A stretch of 45,736 bases of DNA from Bacillota bacterium (lineage in GTDB: Bacteria > Bacillota > SHA-98 > UBA4971), in assembly GCA_012842395.1 (NCBI GenBank), contig DUSX01000034.1, forward strand, positions 452,650 through 498,385, in the 5' to 3' direction. Shown here one piece after another: positions 34,310 through 45,375 of the stretch; position 1 is the first letter of the stretch, and every line of letters begins with the position of its first letter. Position numbers and translations under genes: made by a program. The notes under the pieces are model-generated. The model did not search any database. It saw nothing but the letters and a program-made list of their open reading frames with translations, and had not been told where the DNA came from.

Positions 34310-35290
34310 TCATCCACACGCCGCCGCCCGCGGCCCGTTGCGTTTCCTTTCGATCGCTTTCAGCGCGGCCTCGACGATATTCTCGGGAAGAAGGCCGTAC
34401 GCTTTGAGAAGCTCCTCCGACGTCCCCGATTGGCCGAACACGTCCTTGACGCCAACACGTTCCACCGGCACCGGGAAGCGTTCAGCGGTTATCTCACACA
34501 CCGCGCTCCCCAATCCCCCTATAACGCTATGCTCCTCAGCCGTCACTATGGCGCCGGTCTCGCGCGCAGCTGCCACCACCGCCTCAGCGTCAGCAGGCTT
34601 GACCGTCGCCATGTTGAGCACCCTGACCGACAGACCTTTGCTCTCAGCGAGCCTCGACGCCGCCTCAAGCGCAAACGACACCATGACCCCGCACGCGATG
34701 ATCGTGGCATCACTGCCGTCCCGGAGGAGAGCGGCCTTGCCGATCTCGAATTCATAGTCCTCGCCGAACACCACGGGGACCCCGCTCCTCCCCAACCTTA
34801 TGTACACCGGCCCTTTGTGCCGCGCTGCCGCGAATACAGCTTTCTCCGTCTCGACCGCATCCGCCGGCACAACGACCGTCATACCTGGAATCGCCCTCAT
34901 GAGGGCCACGTCCTCGACCGACTGGTGAGAGGCACCGTCCTCGCCCACGGTGATCCCGCCGTGGGTCGCGCCTATCTTCACGTTGAGCCCCGGGTATCCT
35001 ATGACCTGGCGGACTTGGTCAAATGCACGACCAGCGGCGAACACCGCGAACGTGCTGGCAAACGGAATCTTGCCAGATGCCGCGAAGCCGGCCGCTGTGC
35101 CCATCATGTCCGCCTCGGCGATACCCATGTCGAAGAACCTTTCCGGAAACCTCGCTGCAAACTCGTCCGTTTTGGTGGATTTCGCGAGATCCGCATCGAG
35201 GACCACAACGTCAGGGTTCATCTCGCCCAGCTTGACAAGGGCTTTGCCGTACGCAGCACGCGTCGCTATCTTTTTCGGTACATCTGCCAT
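34310..35290 (-). CDS. Transketolase, C-terminal subunit
   Basis: This is the pyrimidine-binding and C-terminal half of a split transketolase, with 326 residues. It shows the typical RAAYGKALVKLGEMNPDVVV start, DADLAKSTKT, FDMGIAEADMMGTAAGFA and the pyrimidine-domain Glu in that segment. TVGEDGASHQSVEDVALMR and the C-terminal AEEHSVIGGLGSA follow. The enzyme moves two-carbon units in the pentose phosphate pathway and must pair with the N-terminal subunit encoded just upstream. The ATG at 35290 has GGAGG 11 nt upstream; the open frame to 35374 is not supported. Related split enzymes also serve sugar-acid or secondary metabolism, so the exact substrate is open. Confidence 0.93.
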   Translation of the reverse strand: MADVPKKIATRAAYGKALVKLGEMNPDVVVLDADLAKSTKTDEFAARFPERFFDMGIAEADMMGTAAGFAASGKIPFASTFAVFAAGRAFDQVRQVIGYPGLNVKIGATHGGITVGEDGASHQSVEDVALMRAIPGMTVVVPADAVETEKAVFAAARHKGPVYIRLGRSGVPVVFGEDYEFEIGKAALLRDGSDATIIACGVMVSFALEAASRLAESKGLSVRVLNMATVKPADAEAVVAAARETGAIVTAEEHSVIGGLGSAVCEITAERFPVPVERVGVKDVFGQSGTSEELLKAYGLLPENIVEAALKAIERKRNGPRAAACG

Positions 35291-35370
35291 AACGCTTCGA
35301 GCCTCCGTTCGTTTCAGAGTCGGCGAGTCGAGTCCGGTGACGTGCGGCGGCGGGCAGCCACGGGTCCATC

Positions 35371-36237
35371 TCACCTAGCTTCTATGGACCTGATGGCTTG
35401 CTCCGCCTCCTCGCGGGAAGGAGCTTTCCCGTGCCAGTCCACGGCGTTCTCCATGAATGGCACCCCCCTGCCCTTCACCGTGCGAGCGACGATGACCGTG
35501 GGCCGGCCCTTGGTGGCCTTGGCCTCCTCGCACGCTGCGAATATGGCGCGAACATCGTGTCCGTCTATCTCCAGCACATGCCATCCGAACGCGCGCCACC
35601 TTGCGGCGATGTTGTCAAGGGATTTCACATCTGTCACCGGCCCGTCGATTTGAAGCCCGTTGTAGTCAACGAAGGCTGTGAGGTTGTCAAGTTTCCGGTG
35701 AACCGAAGTCATTGCGGCCTCCCACACCTGACCTTCTTCAAGCTCTCCGTCGCCGAGGAGGACGTAAACCCGCGTCGGCCGTCCGTCGAGCCTGGCGGCT
35801 AGCGCCATGCCGTTGGCCGTGGAAAGCCCTTGTCCGAGCGAACCCGTGGACATCTCGACCCCTGGGGTATGCTTCATGCTGGGGTGCCCTTGAAGCCTGC
35901 TTCCGAACTTGCGCAACGTCAGAAGCTCCTCCAGGGGGAAGAAACCAGCTTCGGCCAACACCGCGTACAGCGCGGGCGCGGCGTGTCCCTTCGATAGCAC
36001 GAACCTGTCCCTGTCGGGCCACAGCGGGTCCTGCGGGTTGACCCTCATCACCTTGAAGTAGAGCGTAGTCAGGATCTCCGCGGACGACAGGGAACCCCCG
36101 GGATGGCCGGAGCCGGCCTCCGCCGTCGCCCTTACCACGTGCACCCTCACCCGCCTCGCCTTCTCTTGCAGCATCCGGACCTCGTCCTCCGCGAGGACGG
36201 GCGTCTCACAACAGCGCCTATCACCACTACCGAGCAT
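35371..36237 (-). CDS. Transketolase, N-terminal (thiamine diphosphate-binding) subunit
   Basis: This is the ThDP pyrophosphate-binding half of a split transketolase, with 288 residues. It shows AGSGHPGGSLSSAEIL, LSKGHAAPALYAVL, GSLGQGLSTANGMALA and the ThDP/Mg motif GDGELEEGQVWEA ending at DYNGLQIDG. The ATG at 36237 has GGAG 8 nt upstream. Its partner subunit follows after 80 nt. Split transketolases are usual in archaea and many Bacillota. Confidence 0.94.
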   Translation of the reverse strand: MLGSGDRRCCETPVLAEDEVRMLQEKARRVRVHVVRATAEAGSGHPGGSLSSAEILTTLYFKVMRVNPQDPLWPDRDRFVLSKGHAAPALYAVLAEAGFFPLEELLTLRKFGSRLQGHPSMKHTPGVEMSTGSLGQGLSTANGMALAARLDGRPTRVYVLLGDGELEEGQVWEAAMTSVHRKLDNLTAFVDYNGLQIDGPVTDVKSLDNIAARWRAFGWHVLEIDGHDVRAIFAACEEAKATKGRPTVIVARTVKGRGVPFMENAVDWHGKAPSREEAEQAIRSIEAR

Positions 36238-36247
36238 GTCCGTCACT

Positions 36248-36284
36248 CCTTACCTTGCCTTACCTTGGCCTTGCCTTGCTTGCC
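36248..36284. repeat. Low-complexity CCTT(A/G)-rich repeat
   Basis: The plus strand has repeated CCTTA, CCTTG and CTTGC units across the 3' end of the TagA gene and the gap before the transketolase gene. It is a candidate for replication slippage. It encodes the basic tail SKARPR. Confidence 0.4.
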
Positions 36285-37045
36285 GCGTTGTGAACTCCCC
36301 GCGAAAGCCTTTCCCCGAGGACTCGAATCACGAACCTGGGGAGAGCCAGCACTCTCACAAACCTCCTGGGCTGCTGTAACAAGCGGTACAGCCACTCCAG
36401 GCCCATTCTCCCCATCCAATCGGGTGCCCGCGAGACACGACCCGCGAGCACATCGAGGCTCCCACCCACTCCGAGGCACACCGAGGGACCCAGCCGGGCC
36501 CTGTTGCGGGCGATCCACTTGTCCTGGCGCGGGGCGCCCATGGCGACGAATACGAGCTTGGCCCGGCTCTGCCGAACGCGTTCAGCTACCCAGTCCTCGT
36601 CCCGGTCCCCAAAGAACCCGTGGTGGGTCCCGGCGATCCTCAGGCCGGGCAGACGCGCCGAGAGTCGCGCGGCGGCCTCCTCCGCCACGCCAGGCGAGGC
36701 GCCGAGAAGAAAGACAGGCCATCCTTCTTCGGCCGCGCACTTGACGAGCTCCTGCATGAGGTCGAACCCTGCGACTCTCGCTGGAAGCGCGGAGCCCAGA
36801 ATGCGTGATGCCCAGACCACCCCAGCGCCGTCAGGCACCACAAGGTCCGCGCTGTTCACGATGGCAGCAAGCTCCGCGTCGCGCTGCGCCATCATGGCCA
36901 TCTCGGAATTCAAGGTCACGACTTGGTACACGCGGTCGCCCGCGGTCACCATATCGCGCACCCGCTGCACCGCCCCGGCCATGTCCACCCTGTGAATCCG
37001 GAGCCCCAAGACGTTCACGGTTTCCGCAGATTCAGCTACGTCCAC
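36260..37045 (-). CDS. WecG/TagA/CpsF family glycosyltransferase
   Basis: The product has 261 residues of the GT26 family. Members add ManNAc (TagA) or a related sugar to the undecaprenyl-linked GlcNAc, the second step of wall teichoic acid or secondary polymer synthesis at the inner membrane face. Seen are VVTLNSEMAMMAQ, DLVVPDGAGVVWAS, LLGASPGVAEEAA, FVAMGAPRQDKWI and GVGGSLDVLAGRVSRAP. The basic C-terminus fits membrane association. It begins 4 nt after the csaB stop codon, so the two are co-translated. A CCTTR-type repeat covers its last codons and the gap that follows. Confidence 0.92.
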   Translation of the reverse strand: MDVAESAETVNVLGLRIHRVDMAGAVQRVRDMVTAGDRVYQVVTLNSEMAMMAQRDAELAAIVNSADLVVPDGAGVVWASRILGSALPARVAGFDLMQELVKCAAEEGWPVFLLGASPGVAEEAAARLSARLPGLRIAGTHHGFFGDRDEDWVAERVRQSRAKLVFVAMGAPRQDKWIARNRARLGPSVCLGVGGSLDVLAGRVSRAPDWMGRMGLEWLYRLLQQPRRFVRVLALPRFVIRVLGERLSRGVHNAASKARPR

Positions 37046-37049
37046 GACA

Positions 37050-38180
37050 TCACCCCGTCAAAGCCCTGCTCCGACGGCCGGTTTCTACGGCCAGGCGCGC
37101 CGCCTGCCTCGCGGCCTCCGCCAAGGCGGGCTTCGCTGCGGCAAGAGCAGCTTTCATGCTCTCGCGTCTCGCCCATACATCCATGACCTTTCGAGCAAGG
37201 GCCTCCCCATCCCCCACCGCGCGCCCCGCCGGGGTCACCGAGAGACCGGCCTCTTCGCCTACCATTCTGAGCAGGCCGTCGATCTTTGGATCGTAGGACA
37301 CGGCCACGAATGGCGTGGCGCTCGCGACCGCGAACACGAGCGCGTGATACCTCATGCCGATCACAAGGTCCGCGCACTCCACCAGGGACATTATCTCCTG
37401 CGGCGCATAGTCTCTCTCGAGCACGTACGAACCGTGGTGCATGAGCTCGGCGGCCGCTCGGCTCGCAGCCACGTCACCCGGCTTATGAAAAGGCACGTAC
37501 ACGACCACCGCTCCCAACGAGCGTTGCGCCTCATCAGCGGCGCGCGCGACAGCCTCAAGATAGCCCGACCCATCCGCCCAAGGGCGCACCGAGACCAGTA
37601 CAAGCGGCGTGCCGGCGGCTATCCGCACGCCCTCGGACGCGAGGATGTCGACGCCACGTCGGACAGACGGGCCCAGTTCAAGGCCAAAGGCCGGATCCGC
37701 GGTCACCACGATGGGCGGGCGTTTCACGCCGACCTTCTCAAGGAGCCGGCGCGACGGCTCATCTCTCACCGTGATGGCGTTCACCGTGTTCGCGACGAAC
37801 CTCACGAGCCAACGGCTCCAGGCTCGCTTGAGTGGGCCCACGCCCTGAGAATAGAAGAAAACGGGCTTGCCCATGAGCCTGGCCAAAGCGGCAAGGCCCA
37901 GGTAGTACGCGAGGGACCGAAAGCTCGTGACGTCTTGCAGGAGACTGCCGCTCCCGCTGATGAAGAGATCCGCTGCGGCGATCTCCCGCAAGATCTTGGG
38001 TAGACTGGTCCTTTCCACTGCGTCGATCCCGTGCGTCCGCCGCGTCGCCTCGGGCTCACGCGAAAGGGCCACTATAGACGCGTCGGGGACGGCTTCCCTG
38101 AGATGCTGGACCATTGCGGCCAGCATGGCTTCGTCCCCGGCGTTTCCGAAGCCGAAGTAGCCCGAGAGCACGAACCTCAT
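37050..38180 (-). CDS. csaB: Polysaccharide pyruvyl transferase CsaB
   Basis: CsaB adds a ketal-linked pyruvate to cell-wall polymers, creating the ligand for SLH domains of S-layer and surface proteins. The product has 376 residues. It shows SGYFGFGNAGDEAMLAA at the N-terminus, LFISGSGSLLQDVTS, FYSQGVGPL, SVRPWADG and the C-terminal VIGMRYHALVFA. The ATG at 38180 overlaps the DUF5693 stop (ATGA). An open frame extending to 38414 is a shadow of DUF5693. Together with TagA it points to a pyruvylated secondary cell-wall polymer, so SLH-domain proteins are expected elsewhere in the genome. Confidence 0.93.
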   Translation of the reverse strand: MRFVLSGYFGFGNAGDEAMLAAMVQHLREAVPDASIVALSREPEATRRTHGIDAVERTSLPKILREIAAADLFISGSGSLLQDVTSFRSLAYYLGLAALARLMGKPVFFYSQGVGPLKRAWSRWLVRFVANTVNAITVRDEPSRRLLEKVGVKRPPIVVTADPAFGLELGPSVRRGVDILASEGVRIAAGTPLVLVSVRPWADGSGYLEAVARAADEAQRSLGAVVVYVPFHKPGDVAASRAAAELMHHGSYVLERDYAPQEIMSLVECADLVIGMRYHALVFAVASATPFVAVSYDPKIDGLLRMVGEEAGLSVTPAGRAVGDGEALARKVMDVWARRESMKAALAAAKPALAEAARQAARLAVETGRRSRALTG

Positions 38181-40267
38181 CCCTCGATTCTCTCCCCCTC
38201 CGCCGCACCGGCATCCGCAGTCACACCCGTCGTCGCCTGCCCGGCGGGGCCGGATGGCCGCACTGTCAGCCGCACATACAGGCAGACGGCGCCGAACATC
38301 ACCATAGCTACGATGGCGCCGATGACAAGACCATACGCGGTCCGAAGCACCGTGGCTAGGAGCGGGGTATGCAGATGCGAGAACGTGTTCACCATCGAGA
38401 TCTGACCTATACACCCGATGAGCGTAAGCGGGAGGGCCAGCCGCTTGTCGGCTCGCAGCAGTGCCAACGCCCCGAGTATGAGCGCAGGATGACCGATAAG
38501 GAACTCCTTGGTTCTCGGCCGATAAATGAGCATCTTCTCTAAGAATATCCTCATCCCCGCGTCGAGCGACGGGATCGGGAGGCCGAGGTAAACATTACCG
38601 GTGCGCATGATGTACACGAGCCCGATTACCCCTGCCACGCCAAGCACCACCACATGCCAGACACGGATCGGCTCCGAGAGCACCTCGGCAGCGGCCGCCA
38701 TGAAGTCCCCAGCAGTCCTCCGCTGCGCGACCTGGTACCTCCAGTAGAGCACCACCACGAGCATGAGCGGCAGGATGTGCGCGACCTTCACGCCCATGAA
38801 TTGGTCAAGATGCAACATGAATCTGGTGCTGGAAAGCGTCGCCGCGAGCAACAAGCCCCCCACTACTGACACCCCGGAAGCCTCGAGCCAAAGGAGACAC
38901 GCGTCCCGGAGGCCTGTCCCGTCGCCCAACCGCGGGCTACGGCTGCGACGCGCCCTCGCCCTTGCCAGGACGAGTCCCACCGCGAGCGTGGGGAACACGA
39001 TAGCTGAGCCCAGAGCCGCCACTTGCCGGAAGAACGTGGCGAACCCGGTGCTGATCAGGCCGGCGTACACGAGAAGCCCGAGGACGAACATCCCGAGCTC
39101 CGCGATGGGCGGAATGAACGCTATCATGTCGAGGAGCATGAACCCTCCGGCTAGAATGCCGGCGGCCACAATCACGAGCAAGGGCCTGCTCGGGCTGTAC
39201 CATTCGAACGGCCGGGCCTCGCCGAGCGTAAATCCAGGCTCTGTCATTCCGCGTGCTATCGCCCCGACGTAATCGAGGTTCTGGCTCACCGCCGCGGCCT
39301 CTTCTCCGATTTTCGCGGGGAATGGACGAATGTACATGACCCTGATGTTTCGCTCGCGCGCAGCCCTGACAAACCGGTCTACGGCAGTTTGAACGTCAAT
39401 CTTGTTCATCTCGCCCGCAGTTATGCTGTGAACCCGCACGACGGCGGCGCCCATGAGCCCAGCGAAAGCCTTGTCGCCCTGCTGGACCGCGAATTCCACA
39501 TGGCCGAAGCTTAGCCCGTGAGACTTGAGAACGTCCGCCGCCTCGCGAATGTAGTCTGGGTAGCCGAGCACTTCCTGCCCTTCGAAAACGACGAGGCTGA
39601 CCCCACTAAACTGAGCCAAGCGACCTACGAAGAATGTCATCTTTTCCGGTGTGATCCCCGGATAGTTCCTGAACCTCGCAACCACGCGAAGACCGGCGGC
39701 GTTCACCTGGCTTACCTCCGCGGGGTCAAGGCCGATGTTGACCTCCTCTATCTGCCTCAGGCTCCTCGCTGTCTCTATGAACGGCCCGAAACGCCTCGAG
39801 TCAATCACCGAGATCCGCTCCCCCGCGAGCCTCGCGGCGAGCAGCGGCGCGATCTCGTTGTATGTCGATGCGTCCCGGGGGAACAGGTACGTGTTGCTGC
39901 CGAGAAGGCGCCCCTGGTCTATCATTTGCCTGAGGACCGGGTCGGTGACAGGCGAGAGCTTGTCATAGTCAAGTATCTGCCTACCGGTGAAAGCGCGGAC
40001 TTTGCCCTGTTCTATTAGGTCGCCGACAGTGCGCTCGTTCAGGGCGACGGAGGTCAGCCCTGCCTCCCTTGCCCTGCGCAGGAACGCGTCGACAGGATAT
40101 CCTGATGCGCGGCACATCTCAACCGCCGCGTCGTAATCCATCACGAGCTCAACCTGGCGGTTGGACCGCTCCACCGCGACGCGCCCAACAGCGATGTACA
40201 CCGACGCCAGTACCGACGCTATCAGCGTCCACACCCACAGCTTCCTCGCCCGCCAGGGTCCTGCCAT
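38177..40267 (-). CDS. DUF5693 family polytopic membrane protein
   Basis: The product has 696 residues. An N-terminal anchor (LWVWTLIASVLASVYIAVGR) is followed by an outward domain of about 320 residues with barrel-like character (VALNERTVGDLIEQGKVRAF, RVVARFRNYPGITPEK, HSITAGEMN and NIRVMYIRPFP). About ten membrane segments follow from near residue 345 to 680. The function of the family is not established. It overlaps csaB by 4 nt, and the fixed neighbourhood suggests a step in export, polymerisation or attachment of the CsaB-modified polymer. This is inference. The ATG at 40267 has GGTGGAG 5 nt upstream and is preferred to the ATG at 40285. Confidence 0.85.
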   Translation of the reverse strand: MAGPWRARKLWVWTLIASVLASVYIAVGRVAVERSNRQVELVMDYDAAVEMCRASGYPVDAFLRRAREAGLTSVALNERTVGDLIEQGKVRAFTGRQILDYDKLSPVTDPVLRQMIDQGRLLGSNTYLFPRDASTYNEIAPLLAARLAGERISVIDSRRFGPFIETARSLRQIEEVNIGLDPAEVSQVNAAGLRVVARFRNYPGITPEKMTFFVGRLAQFSGVSLVVFEGQEVLGYPDYIREAADVLKSHGLSFGHVEFAVQQGDKAFAGLMGAAVVRVHSITAGEMNKIDVQTAVDRFVRAARERNIRVMYIRPFPAKIGEEAAAVSQNLDYVGAIARGMTEPGFTLGEARPFEWYSPSRPLLVIVAAGILAGGFMLLDMIAFIPPIAELGMFVLGLLVYAGLISTGFATFFRQVAALGSAIVFPTLAVGLVLARARARRSRSPRLGDGTGLRDACLLWLEASGVSVVGGLLLAATLSSTRFMLHLDQFMGVKVAHILPLMLVVVLYWRYQVAQRRTAGDFMAAAAEVLSEPIRVWHVVVLGVAGVIGLVYIMRTGNVYLGLPIPSLDAGMRIFLEKMLIYRPRTKEFLIGHPALILGALALLRADKRLALPLTLIGCIGQISMVNTFSHLHTPLLATVLRTAYGLVIGAIVAMVMFGAVCLYVRLTVRPSGPAGQATTGVTADAGAAEGERIEG

Positions 40268-40286
40268 GCCATCTCCACCCCACATT

Positions 40287-40303
40287 CCCGCCTGCGCGGC
40301 GGG
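40287..40303. repeat. Short GC hairpin upstream of the DUF5693 gene
   Basis: CCCGCC and GGCGGG form a 6-bp stem around a 5-nt loop in the 118-nt gap between the DUF2993 and DUF5693 genes. It has no U-run, so it is not a clear terminator. Confidence 0.3.
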
Positions 40304-40385
40304 CCGTCTCCTGCGATCTCCACGAGCCCCCCGGCGCCTGGACCGCCTCGAGGGCTAGATATGCTTCAGGGGCAAGAGCCGGGCC

Positions 40386-41096
40386 TCACTTGCCCGTGCC
40401 CGCAGACGTGCCACCGAAAAGGTATACGACCCCGTCCTGCACGCTCACCCCTCGCAGGACGACGGGGATCGGAAGCTTCGACACGTCAACCGACAGGTCC
40501 ACGTTCTTCAGGAGCCCGTTCTTCACAGCCTCCGGTATCACGGCGTTCCCGACCCTGATGCGGTCCACGACATATGCAAGGTGAGTGTCTCCCCGCACCA
40601 CGAATCTGCCGTCGAGGGCTAGATCCACCTTCATGCCGAGGATGCTCGCGCTGCCGGAGACGGTCGCGACGCCAGGCCGAAGCCTCACCGTGAGGAGCTT
40701 CAGAATGCCGTCGCGCGAACGAAAGTACGCGTTCAGGTCGTCCTGTGCAAGTACGACCGTGACGTCGCCTCTGCCGACGTGCCTTACGCCGAGCTTGCCT
40801 TGGTGAAGCACAGAACGGACATCTATGTCGGCCCGGCGTGCGTCCACAAACAAGCGCTGGACGCGGAGCCCGTCCACCATGACGTTGCGCGCGTCGATCG
40901 TGAGGACGTCTATCCTGCCCAGCGCGACTGCAAGCGCGGGGAAGGTCCTGACGTACACACGAACCGACTCGGCCTCATCGAGGCTCGCGGCTATCGCATT
41001 TTCGAGTCGAGCGCTCACAACCCCCGGGATCGTCGCCTCCCCCACCAGGAAGAGGCAGACGACCGCGAGAGCCACGAGCGCGACCGCGTATTTCAT
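40386..41096 (-). CDS. DUF2993 (LmeA-like) exported protein
   Basis: The product has 236 residues. An N-terminal signal or anchor (AVALVALAVVCLFLVGEATI) is followed by a beta-rich DUF2993 domain that seems complete (SVRVYVRTFPALAVALGRID, VDGLRVQRLFVDARRADIDV, VVLAQDDLNAYFRSR and LPIPVVLRGVSVQDGVVYLF). DUF2993 proteins are lipid-binding envelope proteins; LmeA of mycobacteria acts in lipomannan synthesis. The ATG has GAGG 6 nt upstream. It follows prfB after 109 nt and precedes DUF5693, so an envelope role is likely. Confidence 0.88.
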   Translation of the reverse strand: MKYAVALVALAVVCLFLVGEATIPGVVSARLENAIAASLDEAESVRVYVRTFPALAVALGRIDVLTIDARNVMVDGLRVQRLFVDARRADIDVRSVLHQGKLGVRHVGRGDVTVVLAQDDLNAYFRSRDGILKLLTVRLRPGVATVSGSASILGMKVDLALDGRFVVRGDTHLAYVVDRIRVGNAVIPEAVKNGLLKNVDLSVDVSKLPIPVVLRGVSVQDGVVYLFGGTSAGTGK

Positions 41097-41205: not shown

Positions 41206-42313
41206 TTACGCCGACGCCCTGGCCGCCGCCCTCAGGTAAGCCTCGATGAACTCATCGATCTCACCATCCATGACGGCCTGGACGTTCCCGGTTTCGAGCC
41301 CGGTCCGGTGATCCTTCACCATGGTGTATGGCTGGAACACGTAGGACCGAATCTGGTTGCCCCAGGCGATTTCCTTCTGCTCGCCCCGTAGTTCGCCGAG
41401 CTTCTTTTCCTGCTCGGCCTTGTAGTGCTCGAACAGGCGCGCCTTGAGGATCCGCATGGCAACCTCGCGGTTTTGATACTGCGATCGCTCATTCTGACAA
41501 GCCACTATGATGCCGGTCGGAATGTGCGTTATCCTCACGGCGGACTCGGTCTTGTTGACATACTGGCCGCCCGCACCACCGGAGCGGTAAGTGTCGATCT
41601 TGATGTCCTCGGGTCTTATCTCTATGTCCACATCCTCCGGCACCTCGGGGATGACGTCCACTGACGCGAACGATGTATGACGTCTCGCGTTGGCATCGAA
41701 CGGAGATATCCTCACGAGACGGTGGATGCCCTTCTCTGCCTTGAGGTAGCCGTAAGCGTTCTCACCGCTTATCAGGACGGTAACGCTCTTCAGCCCCGCC
41801 TCTTCGCCCGGCAAGAAGTCGGTTATCTCTGCCTTGTACCCGCGCCTTTCCGCCCACCGAAGGTACATCCGGAGGAGCATCTCCGCCCAGTCCTGAGACT
41901 CGGTACCGCCTGCGCCCGGATGAATCGAGAGGATGGCGTTGGCGCGATCGTACTCGCCACCCAGTAGGTGCGCGAGCTCAAGTCCGGAGACCACCTTGGC
42001 GAGGGACTTGAGGCCCTGCCGGACCTCCTTTTCGACTGACTCATCGTCCTCCTCGAGGCCCAGCTCAAGGAGCACAGCAAGGTCCTCGGCCTCGGCCCGG
42101 GCTCTCTCCCATCGCTCCACATCGGCTTTGATCTGGCTCACTTGTTGGAGCACCTTCTGGGCGGCCTCGCGGTCATCCCAGAAGCCCGGCGCGCTAACCT
42201 GCTGCTCGAGCTCGGACAACTTTGATTTCTTCGCCTCAATGTCAAAGATACACCCTCATCTCTTCGACCCTGGAAACAAGGTCGTCTAGGACGGGTTTCA
42301 GCTCACTCAACAT
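41206..42313 (-). CDS. prfB: Peptide chain release factor 2, with programmed +1 frameshift
   Basis: RF2 ends translation at UGA and UAA. Translation begins at the ATG at 42313, runs 23 codons to an in-frame TGA (42244-42242) and must shift +1 there to continue to 41206, giving 368 residues. Domains: the helical N-terminal part (SELEQQVSAPGFWDDREAAQ), the anticodon-like SPF motif in VRISPFDANARRHTSF, and the catalytic GGQ in RSGGAGGQYVNKTESAV. The start lies 4 nt after the secA stop codon, a conserved secA-prfB pairing in Bacillota. A caller without frameshift handling would begin the gene near 42219 and lose the N-terminus. Confidence 0.96.
42241..42256 (-). promoter_or_regulatory. prfB programmed +1 frameshift site
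   Basis: The minus strand reads AGGGTGTATCTTTGAC: an internal Shine-Dalgarno (AGGGTG), 3 nt, then the slippery CTT, the stop TGA and C. This copies the E. coli prfB site (AGGGGGTATCTTTGAC) with one change. When RF2 is scarce, the ribosome slips on CTT and reads GAC, restoring RF2. It is autoregulatory. Confidence 0.95.
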
Positions 42314-42317
42314 CCGC

Positions 42318-45008
42318 CTACGCACCCCTTCCGCAGCACTTCTTGTATTTCTTCCCGCTCCCGCAAGGACACGGATCGTTTCTCCCAACCTTCTTCACAC
42401 GTCGCTGCTCCACACGAGGGCGCTCCTCGTCCTGCCCGCCGCCGCTCATGGTTATGCGATAACGACGCGCCTTTGGCTGTCTCTCGCCGGTGTCCACGCC
42501 GACCCGGAACATCCAGGTCACAACGTCCTCCTGGATGCTGGCCTTGAGAGCCTCGAACATCTGCCAGCCTTCGATCTGATATTCCTGGACCGGGTTGTGC
42601 TGCCCGTAGGCCCGAAGCCCGATGCCCTCGCGCAGGTCGTCCATGGCCTGTAGGTGGTCCATCCACTTAGCGTCTATGATTCTGAGCATAACGAGCTTCT
42701 CAAGGGCCCTCATGCGTTCAGGCCCGATGAGAGCCTCCCGCGCCTCATAAGCCTTCTGAGCCGCTTGCACGATATGCTCCTCGAGCTCGGCTCGACGCAA
42801 GCCGACGAGGTCCTCTTTCGTAACCAGCGACGAGCCCGGCGCGAAGGTCTTGTTCACCCGGTCGGCAAGCCCATCGAGGTCCCATTCCTCCTGGAACACC
42901 TTTTCGTTGGCGTAGGTGTCCAGCATTCCCCGCACAACCTGGGCAATCATCTCCATGATTCGGTCCTTGAGGTTCTCGCCGCGCAGGACCATGCGTCTGT
43001 CGCGGTAGATAACCTCGCGTTGCTTGTTCATGACATCATCGTACTCGAGCACCTGTTTGCGAATGTCGAAGTTGCGCGCCTCCACACGTTTCTGCGCGGT
43101 CTCGATAGCTCGCGAGAGTCGCGGATGCTCGATCGGCACGTTTTCTTCCCAGCCGAGCCTGTTCATGATATTCGTAATGAACTCCCCGCCGAACAGACGC
43201 ATCAAATCGTCCTCAAGCGAAACGTAGAAGCGCGATGCCCCCGGGTCGCCCTGGCGCCCGGACCGGCCGCGAAGCTGGTTGTCAATGCGCCTGCTTTCGT
43301 GACGCTCGGTGCCGATAATGAAAAGCCCGCCGAGCTCGACGACCTTCTCATGTTCCCCGGCGCACGCAGCCTTCGCCTCTTCAAGATAGGCCTGGAACTC
43401 CTGCCTCGCCTTGAGGACTTGCGGATCCTTCGTAGGGAACCTCTCGGCGGCCTCGGCCACGACCTCGCTTGGGTAGCCTTGAGCGCGTAGCTTCTGCTTG
43501 GCGATGTACTCCGGGTTGCCGCCCAGCACGATGTCGGTTCCGCGACCGGCCATGTTTGTGGCTATGGTCACTGTCCCGAGGCGGCCGGCCTGTGCGACTA
43601 TCTCAGCCTCGCGCTCGTGGTGCTTTGCGTTGAGCACCTGGTGAGGAATGCCGCGGCGACGCAGCATCTCGCTGAGCCTTTCGGATTTTTCGATGGAGAT
43701 CGTGCCCACAAGGACCGGCTGCCCCTTTTTGTGCAGCCTCTCGATCTCGTCTACGACGGCGTTGAACTTGGCGCGCTCCGTCTTGTAAACGACGTCCGGG
43801 TGATCAATCCGGATCATCGGGAGATGCGTCGGGATCACGACAACGTCGAGCCCGTATATCTTGCGGAACTCCTCTTCCTCCGTGGCAGCGGTGCCGGTCA
43901 TGCCTGCCAGTTTCTTGTACATCCTGAAGTAGTTCTGGAACGTGATCGTCGCAAGCGTCTGGCTTTCCCGCTCGACCTTCACGCCCTCCTTGGCCTCGAT
44001 AGCCTGATGCAAGCCGTCACTGTAGCGTCTCCCGAACATGAGCCGCCCGGTGAACTCATCCACGATGATGACCTCGCCGTCCTTGACGACGTAGTCTCTA
44101 TCGCGCCGCATGAGCGCGTGGGCCCGCAGAGCCTGGTTCAGATGGTGGGCGAGCTCCATGTTGGCGTCATCATACAAGTTGTCTATGCCCAACATCTTCT
44201 CGACCCTGGCCACGCCGTCCTCGGTCAGCGCGACGGTCCGGGCCTTTTCGTCTACCGTGTAGTCCACCTCAGGCTTAAGCCTCGGCACGAGCCGGGCGAA
44301 GTGGTAATACAAGTCCGTCGACTCCTCCGCCTGGCCGGAGATGATGAGCGGAGTCCGCGCCTCATCTATGAGGATGCTATCCACCTCGTCGACGATAGCG
44401 TAATTCAGCTCGCGCTGAACCATCTCGTCTTCAGACGTGACCATGTTGTCGCGGAGATAGTCGAACCCGAACTCGTTGTTCGTGCCGTACGTTATATCTG
44501 CCGCATAAGCGGCCTTTCTCTGGGTGTAATCCAACCCATGGACGATCACGCCCACCGTAAGCCCGAGGAACTTGTAAATCGTCCCCATCCATTCGGCGTC
44601 GCGCCGCGCCAGGTAATCGTTGACAGTGACGACGTGAACGCCTTTCCCTGGGAGGGCGTTGAGGTATGCAGGCAGCGTCGCCGCAAGCGTCTTGCCTTCA
44701 CCGGTCTTCATCTCGGCGATCCTGCCCTCGTGGAGCACGATACCGCCCATGACCTGCTCGTCGAAGTGGCGCTGTCCCAGCACCCTGGCAGACGCCTCCC
44801 GGACAACCGCGAACGCTTCCAAGAGCATGTCATCCAAAGACTCGCCGTTAGCAAGTCGCGACCTGAACTCGGCCGTCTTCGCGGCGAGCTCGTCGTCAGA
44901 CAGCTTGGAAACCTCCGGTTCGAGGGCGGTTATGGCCGCTGCCATGTCCCGCAATCTGCGGAGCTCTCTCTCATTGAAATCAAACGCTTTCTTCAGAAAG
45001 CCAAGCAC
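42318..45008 (-). CDS. secA: Preprotein translocase motor SecA
   Basis: SecA is the ATPase that drives proteins through SecYEG. The product has 896 residues. It shows NBD1 with [20 protein letters not shown] and the DEAD-type [14 protein letters not shown], the preprotein-binding and scaffold regions, and NBD2 with [14 protein letters not shown] and [15 protein letters not shown]-terminal zinc-binding tail ([14 protein letters not shown]) binds SecB or phospholipid. The GTG at 45008 ([16 protein letters not shown]) matches the usual SecA start and has AAGGG about 9 nt upstream; an open frame to 45272 is part of the leader. It is followed at once by prfB. Confidence 0.97.
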
Positions 45009-45375
45009 CCTGCTTTCCCTTCTTTCAACCCGGGCATTGCGCCCATAGCTCGCGCGGACGCGGTGAGCTGAAAATGAAAAGCCAACCGCCAACCCCCTCT
45101 TACTGATGAGCGGTCCGCGCGCGCCCTGTCGGCTCCTGGCGACCCCGGAGACGGGATCGAAGAGACGAGTTCGTACGGAACCGCCGCGACGCACCCCATT
45201 CAGCGAAAACCGAAAACCATCCCTGCGAAGACCATCCGTACCGAACGGACGCGCCCACAAGGCGCACGCCACGTCCCTGTCTCAGAGCGGGACTGTGTCA
45301 GCGCCAGCACGCGCCCGCACAAGCTAGCGCCAGAGGCTCAGCCCTTTTGTTGGCTCCGCCCCTTGGCGCGAGATA
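45009..45375 (-). other. Long secA leader region
   Basis: If the promoter at 45376-45404 is the main one, the secA message has about 360 nt before its GTG. No recognisable riboswitch is seen. A minus-strand open frame of 68 codons (44993-45199) ends just inside secA. It lacks a good ribosome binding site and a clear signal peptide, so I do not call it a gene. To the right, 45405-45500 holds nothing that I can name. Confidence 0.4.

Follow-up and report, generated by a model that had tools for sequence, protein, structure and literature searches.

In P. alvei, TagA adds ManNAc to GlcNAc-PP-lipid in vitro, and CsaB pyruvylates the lipid-linked ManNAc-GlcNAc disaccharide (PMC6030368). The review PMC6801904 describes the steps that follow CsaB in P. 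alvei as elusive, states that neither a Wzx/Wzy nor an ABC route has data in its favour, and reports that tagO, tagA and csaB could not be deleted in P. alvei CCM 2051. Every repeat of the P. alvei polymer is pyruvylated (PMC6801904), and in B. anthracis pyruvylation was reported for the terminal unit only (PMC7831098). WpaA/WpaB of B. anthracis were proposed as polymerase/ligase of its polymer, an activity described as unproven by experiment (PMC6030368). The family of these two proteins, PF13425, belongs to the same clan as Wzy_C (PF04932). In Bacillus the gene order is csaA-csaB-sap-eag (PMC3297441), and the csaA/csaB pair was described as encoding a pyruvyl transferase together with a carbohydrate transport protein associated with it (PMC9277125). 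As CsaB is the transferase, CsaA was read as the transporter, although the word order of that paper would swap them. The secondary cell wall polymer (SCWP) locus of P. alvei is arranged orf1-csaB-tagA-tagO, with orf1 (PAV_RS07430) preceding csaB by locus-tag order (PMC6030368), and we infer that orf1 encodes a DUF5693 protein. A Thermus paper on DrpA/DrpB surfaced via its csaB mutant, in which the loss of csaB loosens the outer envelope; it was otherwise unrelated and was set aside. Many bacteria anchor their outer coat or their outer membrane on this kind of sugar polymer, and the joining of its exported units outside the membrane is a step without a clear gene so far.

The locus described here lies in a window of 45,736 nt, meaning the whole stretch of DNA that was analysed, within which no Rfam RNA family was found. 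The earlier note had placed DUF2993, DUF5693, csaB and tagA on one strand as a surface-polymer cluster. All four genes were confirmed on the minus strand at the coordinates given there, and the cluster character is supported by CsaB and TagA. The cluster exceeds the extent first reported, as transketolase N- and C-terminal genes follow tagA, and prfB and secA precede lmeA. Along the minus strand the order is secA-prfB-lmeA-DUF5693-csaB-tagA-split transketolase (Table 1). In contrast to the P. alvei locus no tagO is found beside tagA; lmeA and transketolase genes are present instead. As previously noted, the sequence shows DUF5693 and csaB overlapping by ATGA and the GTG of tagA following the csaB stop after 4 nt; 118 nt separate the end of lmeA from the ATG of DUF5693. 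A second in-frame ATG of the DUF5693 frame is located at 40285. The PF18949 match is full-length, covering residues 37-661 of the protein and positions 1-605 of the 609 of the profile. The tagA product stayed below the cut-off of the narrower TarA equivalog NF041710 (194.4 bits versus 350), and judged by sequence its membership reaches only the wider WecB/TagA/CpsF superfamily.

Table 1. Genes of the cluster and its flanks, with profile matches
Feature	Position	Strand	Profile matches
secA (start approximate)	42318-45272	-	SecA domains, among them PF07517 at E 3.1e-133
prfB, peptide chain release factor, part after likely frameshift site	41206-42219	-	PF03462, E 2.5e-58; PF00472, E 5.7e-44
lmeA (DUF2993), LmeA-like lipid-binding protein, 236 aa	40386-41096	-	PF11209, 87.1 bits, E 2.4e-24, above curated cut-off 27.3
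DUF5693 membrane protein, 696 aa from ATG at 40267	38177-40267	-	PF18949, 565.7 bits, E 1.7e-169, above cut-off 29
csaB, polysaccharide pyruvyl transferase, 376 aa	37050-38180	-	TIGR03609, 309.7 bits, above equivalog cut-off 213.1
tagA, WecG/TagA/CpsF-family glycosyltransferase, 261 aa, GTG start	36260-37045	-	PF03808, 232.8 bits, E 2.6e-69; TIGR00696, 189.8 bits, above cut-off 69
Transketolase N-terminal half	35371-36246	-	PF00456, E 4.4e-68
Transketolase C-terminal half	34310-35374	-	PF02779/PF02780

A search of papers accessible without subscription yielded none that named DUF5693 or PF18949. We compared the locus in a phylum sample of 199 genomes, 120 with DUF5693 and 172 with a CsaB match at an E-value of at most 0.001; the curated cut-off is reached by 147 of these 172. 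DUF5693 was found directly before csaB in 104 of the 120 genomes, counting one DUF5693 piece per genome and dropping extra pieces and one genome below the cut-off (G159). Among the 16 genomes counted as non-adjacent, csaB was located on the same contig at a distance of approximately 4.8 kb in 3 and on another contig in 4; 6 had csaB matches without listed positions and 3 had no csaB. Among 80 related loci, drawn from several phyla, 71 likewise showed direct adjacency. The co-occurrence with CsaB and SLH proteins proposed in the earlier note was borne out, with a CsaB match in 117/120 and likewise an SLH match in 117/120 DUF5693 genomes, so that DUF5693 is not common where either is missing. 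Conversely, 117 of the 172 CsaB genomes contained DUF5693 and 55 did not. In another phylum DUF5693 was present in 97 of 101 genomes, and the DUF5693-csaB pair was also detected in Armatimonadota, Margulisbacteria and Selenomonas. Matches among 14 control genomes came from Thermus, Deinobacterium, Thermotoga and Bacteroides ihuae, three of these four being above the cut-off.

The order secA-prfB-lmeA-DUF5693-csaB was seen in relatives, and this repeated gene order shows that the cluster is not due to chance. Using custom HMMs for the tagA, lmeA, tkt, prfB, secA, Wzy_C and MurJ labels and a rough hydropathy count for helices in the compared loci, lmeA was found just upstream of DUF5693 in 30, prfB at most 4 kb upstream in 38, and the N-terminal transketolase gene behind csaB, at a distance of up to 3.5 kb, in 23 of the 80 related loci. 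lmeA is a conserved neighbour of the DUF5693-csaB pair, and we infer only that it may play a part there. The three genomes with DUF5693 and no CsaB match (G048, G087, G122) belong to one genus. At L061, the one locus examined of these, DUF5693 and tagA are kept in a teichoic-acid-like operon, which makes the partner of DUF5693 look like a lipid-linked glycan rather than pyruvate. A dependence of DUF5693 on pyruvylation was considered and dropped in view of this genus.

An AlphaFold2 model of DUF5693 based on an alignment of 83 sequences reached a pLDDT of 92.0 and a pTM of 0.89; the single-sequence model (pLDDT 40) was useless. According to the model, combined with the positive-inside rule for the topology, the protein would consist of a first membrane helix, an outward (beta/alpha)-barrel of approximately residues 36-354 and nine more membrane helices between residues 361 and 668. 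The predicted total of ten agrees with the outward domain and about ten helices expected beforehand. The strictest conservation among the 83 sequences was observed in the membrane part and not in the barrel. Residues of the membrane part taken as active-site geometry are K494, R555, R573, R583, R585, T586, K587, E588, S624, N627, T628, H631, T634 and R642, and position 569 is E in 72/83 sequences. In the model the strongly conserved polar residues of this part are placed at the outer face, and none mid-membrane or inside.

The closest folds to the barrel were LamB/YcsF (1v6t, Z 13.9), BH1492/DUF610 (2nly, Z 13.4) and ATU2773 (2qv5, Z 12.9), with an rmsd of 3.8-4.5 A over 193-200 residues and 9-12% identity. 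In VIA-align the five best rows reached Z values of 12.5-13.9, ahead of the next barrels with 11.6 and less. We take these three structures to belong to the NodB-like deacetylase superfamily, whose members bind metal by an Asp/His set. The resemblance, together with the conserved barrel residues E78, E258, Q262, R278, E286, R306 and R309, would fit a protein that mainly modifies or senses the polymer, with a deacetylase- or glycosidase-like barrel and the membrane part as an anchor. We consider this distinctly unlikely. Unlike deacetylase-like barrels, the DUF5693 barrel is fused to a nine-helix membrane part and lacks strongly conserved His or Asp: none was conserved at 85% in the 83 sequences (best D44 in 65/83 and H280 in 60/83), so that no metal site of the deacetylase type can be seen. 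The stricter conservation of the membrane part also stands against this role, as does Foldseek, which gave no match to the model at an E-value of 0.001 or better (2nly 0.027, 2qv5 0.14). The best 50 rows of each fold search were all barrels and included no Wzy, WaaL, MurJ or GT-C, a result that informs on the barrel only.

DUF5693 had no Pfam match besides PF18949, and hence none to Wzy_C or MurJ. Using hhalign, the membrane part scored E 0.043 (probability 1.2) against 32 Wzy_C homologues, with 0.1 for the reversed and 0.42 for the shuffled control, and E 0.23 (probability 0.3) against 18 MurJ homologues, with controls of 0.19 and 0.54. As these values lie near the controls, no signal for either family was obtained. 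Profile searches against solved structures (best E 1.6) and PHROGs (best E 0.1) yielded nothing.

MurJ/Wzx (MOP) flippases are, like DUF5693, multi-helix membrane proteins of envelope glycan operons, and in Bacillus it is CsaA that is encoded at the corresponding place before csaB (PMC3297441, PMC9277125). DUF5693 might accordingly export the lipid-linked repeat, as CsaA is thought to do, and among the matches listed no MurJ was found beside csaB in 98 of 111 DUF5693 genomes. We nevertheless regard an exporter as unlikely. DUF5693 lacks profile similarity to MurJ, and its conserved polar residues are predicted on one face only. Moreover, some genomes contain a separate MurJ paralogue beside DUF5693: in at least 11 DUF5693 genomes a MurJ gene follows 266-597 bp behind csaB, with another MurJ elsewhere. 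In a MurJ tree 19 proteins from csaB loci grouped in one clade (100/98), and 24 others were separated from it (100/100). The tree held 47 rows representing 45 different sequences, owing to the duplicated genomes L202/L139 and L208/L156; 22 rows were labelled csaB-linked, including L153 at approximately 3.5 kb from csaB. The MurJ of L064, encoded between csaB and DUF5693, had a very long branch outside the main clade. Also outside were the MurJs of L209 and L210, encoded directly upstream of csaB at loci without DUF5693, and the MurJ of L214, labelled other, grouped with the csaB-linked clade (97/83).

Neighbourhoods of csaB were counted in the 150 of the 172 CsaB genomes with listed csaB positions, the Wzy_C and MurJ counts resting on 150 matches listed for each. 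Among these matches, a Wzy_C gene no more than 8 kb from csaB was present in 20 of the 39 genomes without DUF5693 versus 8 of the 111 with it (Fisher p 1.7e-8). Counted by taxonomic family, f16 and f24 falling in both groups, the contrast was 11/23 versus 4/58 (p 7.6e-5). For MurJ the same matches gave 5/39 versus 13/111, i.e. no replacement pattern, which again speaks against an exporter. At three loci (L045, L048, L055) Wzy_C filled the exact slot of DUF5693 before csaB, and tagA and tkt genes still followed. Of the three functions offered by the earlier note, exporter, polymerase or ligase, the first is therefore disfavoured, because of the separate MurJ clade behind csaB in a minority of clusters and the outer-face residues, and polymerase or ligase is favoured, because Wzy_C near csaB is far commoner where DUF5693 is missing. 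Wzy/WaaL proteins resemble DUF5693 in being polytopic and in the proposed outer-face chemistry on undecaprenyl-PP glycans; they differ by the absence of sequence or profile similarity and of the outward barrel of approximately 320 residues. The remaining 19 of the 39 genomes without DUF5693 had no Wzy_C within 8 kb among the matches listed.

In at least eight DUF5693 genomes from four families a Wzy_C gene is located upstream of csaB and on its strand, so that in these genomes neither protein simply substitutes for the other. This coexistence would be explained if DUF5693 were a ligase or capping transferase, handing the pyruvylated unit, or else the completed chain, to its acceptor, with Wzy_C or another enzyme as polymerase. 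Such a role would also account for the retention of DUF5693 at L061, in a genus where a repeat polymerase may not be needed and which may thus count against a polymerase, and for the terminal pyruvylation in B. anthracis. We judge it unlikely, as pyruvylation of each repeat in P. alvei stands against it, and as LCP, the established class linking such polymers to peptidoglycan, was found in 192 of the 199 genomes and in 117 of the 120 with DUF5693. The near-universal LCP is a ligation family separate from DUF5693.

Most likely, though with confidence only about even, DUF5693 is an outside-facing enzyme joining exported units into the secondary cell wall polymer. Its donor would be undecaprenyl-PP-linked, CsaB-pyruvylated ManNAc-GlcNAc units, turned over by a MurJ-type or other flippase. 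DUF5693 would then join the units outside the membrane, either acting as a Wzy polymerase does or transferring the pyruvylated unit to the chain end; the outward barrel may, speculatively, bind or trim the growing glycan. LCP enzymes would attach the chain to peptidoglycan, and SLH domains would grip the polymer, in a diderm host those of OmpM-like outer-membrane proteins. Presumably the flippase is supplied in part by the csaB-linked MurJ and the ligase by LCP. With slightly less than even confidence, we propose that DUF5693, as a membrane transferase with a fused barrel, defines a new class of glycan polymerases that face outwards and make the polymer bound by SLH domains in monoderms and diderms (Bacillota, Armatimonadota, Margulisbacteria and others). 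If so, DUF5693 would be an ancient component of the link between the wall and the outer membrane or S-layer, acting in some lineages after a dedicated MurJ-type flippase. The family would gain a function, the pathway of TagO, TagA, CsaB, flippase, DUF5693 and LCP would be complete on paper, and the way in which S-layers, and the outer membranes of diderm Terrabacteria, are anchored would become testable in model strains.

The host itself is diderm, with BamA and OmpM-like SLH proteins. Outside the window its genome encodes three proteins that carry a single SLH domain at the N terminus. An OmpM-type protein would also have an outer-membrane barrel at the C terminus, and a barrel match (PF13505) was found in two of the three, below the curated cut-off. 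In two large genomes of the sample DUF5693-csaB-tagA is followed by a multi-helix protein and then a long protein; at the L073 locus these are a PF00953 protein and a protein with SLH.

The cluster is transcribed from the minus strand in the order secA, prfB, lmeA, DUF5693, csaB, tagA and a split transketolase. Rereading the window sequence bore out the earlier note on positions, on the ATGA overlap and on the gap of 4 nt. The motif CTTTGAC at window 42241-42247 (minus strand), immediately 5' of the prfB reading frame, resembles the site at which RF2 genes undergo programmed +1 frameshifting.

Genes of the DUF5693 cluster in the window
Gene	Position	Strand	Profile match
lmeA	40386-41096	minus	
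DUF5693	38177-40267	minus	Pfam family matched over full length, 565.7 bits
csaB	37050-38180	minus	CsaB equivalog cut-off passed
tagA	36260-37045	minus	only the wider superfamily model passed
transketolase (two genes)	35371-36246 and 34310-35374	minus	

Profile matches for DUF5693, CsaB (E 0.001 or better) and SLH were collected for a phylum sample of 199 genomes. DUF5693 was found over the cut-off in 120 genomes, a CsaB match in 172 (147 over the cut-off) and SLH in 177. In the co-occurrence check proposed in the earlier note, CsaB matched in 117 of the 120 DUF5693 genomes (not in G048, G087 and G122) and SLH likewise in 117 (not in G048, G087 and G091). DUF5693 was located immediately 5' of csaB on the same strand in 104/120 genomes, with 21-223 bp between match edges. 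A genome scan yielded 553 relatives, of which the best 80 were examined; their hosts were Bacillota, Selenomonas, Anaerovibrio, Armatimonadota, Saganbacteria/Margulisbacteria, one Atribacterium and others. Among these best 80 of 553 loci, csaB was found directly 3' of DUF5693 in 71, lmeA just before DUF5693 in 30, prfB upstream in 38, tagA directly after csaB in 27 and tktN downstream in 23. For 101 genomes from the phylum of an Armatimonadota genome, DUF5693 was detected in 97 and a CsaB match in 99 (89 over the cut-off); two genomes (G256, G268) carried DUF5693 without a CsaB match, and four CsaB genomes lacked DUF5693. CsaB matched in all 15 genomes picked for odd neighbourhoods or named hosts, in 14 of them over the cut-off, even where csaB does not adjoin DUF5693. 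DUF5693 goes together with CsaB. As 55 of 172 CsaB genomes in the phylum sample lack it, CsaB does not depend on it. Tandem DUF5693 genes with a 4-nt overlap were observed at loci L092 and L095, and two diverged copies at L069 (22% and 26% identity to the window's DUF5693). A match, possibly under the cut-off, was also seen in the control genome Bacteroides ihuae, outside the expected lineages.

In order to see what stands in for DUF5693, 20 csaB loci were taken from 39 genomes without it. At three (L045, L048, L055) a Wzy_C/O-antigen-ligase protein (PF04932, E 4e-26 to 4e-22) was encoded directly 5' of csaB, with tagA and transketolase still downstream, and at L044 Wzy_C preceded csaB-tagA. 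Among the matches listed, Wzy_C was found within 8 kb of csaB in 20/39 genomes without versus 8/111 with DUF5693 (p 1.7e-8) or, counted by taxonomic family, in 11/23 versus 4/58 (p 7.6e-5), and within 3 kb in 12/39 versus 2/111. The available part of PMC6030368 gives WpaA/WpaB, which belong to the Wzy/WaaL clan, as the proteins proposed for polymerisation and ligation in B. anthracis. The earlier note had named DUF5693 as exporter, polymerase or ligase of the polymer; the replacement pattern favours the polymerase or ligase. On the best reading, DUF5693 could well polymerise the SLH-binding polymer on the outer side of the membrane, or act on it there as a related transferase. The order of the genes, their co-occurrence, the replacement by Wzy_C, the clade of MurJs, the pattern of conserved residues and the barrel model are observed; the activity, substrate and transfer direction of DUF5693 we infer, as we do the roles of the barrel and of LmeA. 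In the 8 DUF5693 genomes with Wzy_C within 8 kb of csaB among the matches listed, Wzy_C shares the strand of csaB and lies 2.9-3.3 kb upstream of it, and L075 reads Wzy_C, glycosyltransferase, DUF5693, csaB, tagA, tkt. This joint presence speaks against a simple swap; there DUF5693 must have another job or act on a different unit. Moreover, 19 of the 39 genomes without DUF5693 also had no Wzy_C within 8 kb of csaB among the matches listed. At L052, L056, L057 and L060 the reading frame of CsaB spans 612-742 aa, well above the usual length, which suggests fusions with another enzyme domain.

A flippase role of DUF5693 appears improbable, as its seat is already filled, at least in part, by MurJ. 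Among the matches listed, MurJ was found 266-597 bp 3' of csaB in 11 DUF5693 genomes (G106, G126, G116, G002, G080, G031, G110, G038, G170, G182, G156), each with a second strong MurJ elsewhere. In a tree of 47 MurJs (45 different sequences, with loci L187-L210 among them), 19 from csaB loci grouped in a clade (support 100/98) apart from that of 24 others (100/100); exceptions were L209, L210 and L064 among the csaB-linked and L214 among the others. The clade, found directly behind csaB in some DUF5693 operons, is likely a dedicated flippase for the pyruvylated unit; no mention of such a paralogue was found in the accessible part of the literature. The frequency of MurJ within 8 kb of csaB did not differ between genomes without (5/39) and with DUF5693 (13/111) among the matches listed; of the loci lacking DUF5693, L051 and L052 had it 5' of csaB, L059 elsewhere. 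LCP enzymes, which attach such polymers to peptidoglycan, were encoded in 192/199 genomes of the phylum sample and 117/120 DUF5693 genomes. That DUF5693 is a capping enzyme or ligase is unlikely, if somewhat less so than a flippase.

The AlphaFold2 model of DUF5693, built from 83 sequences (pLDDT 92, pTM 0.89), predicts a helix at 5-35, a mixed barrel until about residue 354 and nine membrane helices, in agreement with the outward domain and about ten membrane helices proposed earlier. Using VIA-align, the barrel ranked closest to LamB/YcsF proteins (1v6t, Z 13.9, rmsd 4.5, 195 residues; 2dfa, Z 13.3; 1xw8, Z 12.5), BH1492 (2nly, Z 13.4, rmsd 3.9, 193 residues) and ATU2773 (2qv5, Z 12.9, rmsd 3.8, 200 residues), presumably all relatives of NodB-type deacetylases; the remaining barrels scored Z 11.6 and less, and Foldseek gave no match at E 0.001. 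Barrel residues E78, E258, Q262, E286, R306 and R309 were conserved in 76-83 of the 83 sequences. Since no barrel His or Asp reached 85%, a NodB-type metal site is unlikely judging from the sequences, and a modifier role of DUF5693 is the least probable reading. In the membrane part, K494, R555, R573, R583, R585, K587 and E588 were found in 83/83 and H631 and R642 in 82/83 sequences. Given an N-in topology, suggested by a mean of 2.1 Lys/Arg ahead of TM1, all membrane-part polar positions conserved to at least 85% lie either in an outer loop or no deeper than the outer fifth of their helix. This pattern, mapped for DUF5693 alone, would fit an enzyme acting on lipid-PP-glycans at the outer leaflet, as WaaL and Wzy do, rather than a flippase with a charged cavity like MurJ; together with the MurJ clade, it disfavours the exporter of the earlier note.

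The three DUF5693 genomes without CsaB (G048, G087, G122) belong to one genus, two without SLH match and one with two weak matches. At the G048 locus L061, DUF5693 overlaps tagA, and the neighbourhood also encodes a TagO-like enzyme (PF00953), a TagB-like glycerophosphotransferase (PF04464), a nucleotidyltransferase and a protein of the Fe-ADH_2 family, which includes glycerol-1-phosphate dehydrogenases. We read this one operon as making a teichoic-acid-like polymer. DUF5693 goes with tagA there, which points to the ManNAc-GlcNAc lipid, and not to pyruvate, as what it acts on.

The P. alvei locus reads orf1, csaB, tagA, tagO (available part of PMC6030368), with two ORFs of unknown function and elusive later polymer steps (available part of PMC6801904). 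Two large sampled genomes (L071, L073) carry DUF5693-csaB-tagA and, downstream, genes for a multi-helix protein and for a long one, which in L073 match PF00953 and SLH, respectively. Given these two loci, orf1 is most likely DUF5693.

The window's genome (3.14 Mb, 61 contigs) yielded nine SLH matches and encodes BamA (TIGR03303, 302.8 bits versus cut-off 297.15). On the BamA contig, three OmpM-like SLH proteins stand in a row (L184, G000:C10:44500-55500), each with a single N-terminal SLH domain and a C-terminal F, two with a weak outer-membrane-barrel match under the Pfam cut-off. On this basis, the host, a Bacillota-type bacterium, is most likely diderm, with the pyruvylated polymer tethering OmpM-like proteins; such binding by SLH domains was shown for Deinococcus-Thermus and Cyanobacteria (available part of PMC10628300). 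Further SLH proteins carried three SLH domains (one) or a solute-binding domain (one). Negativicutes OmpM was reported to bind polyaminated peptidoglycan and not a pyruvylated polymer (same part of PMC10628300). Selenomonads may also make a pyruvylated polymer. The order secA-prfB-lmeA-DUF5693-csaB is kept in Selenomonas and Anaerovibrio (L106, L110, L112, L114-L118, L122).
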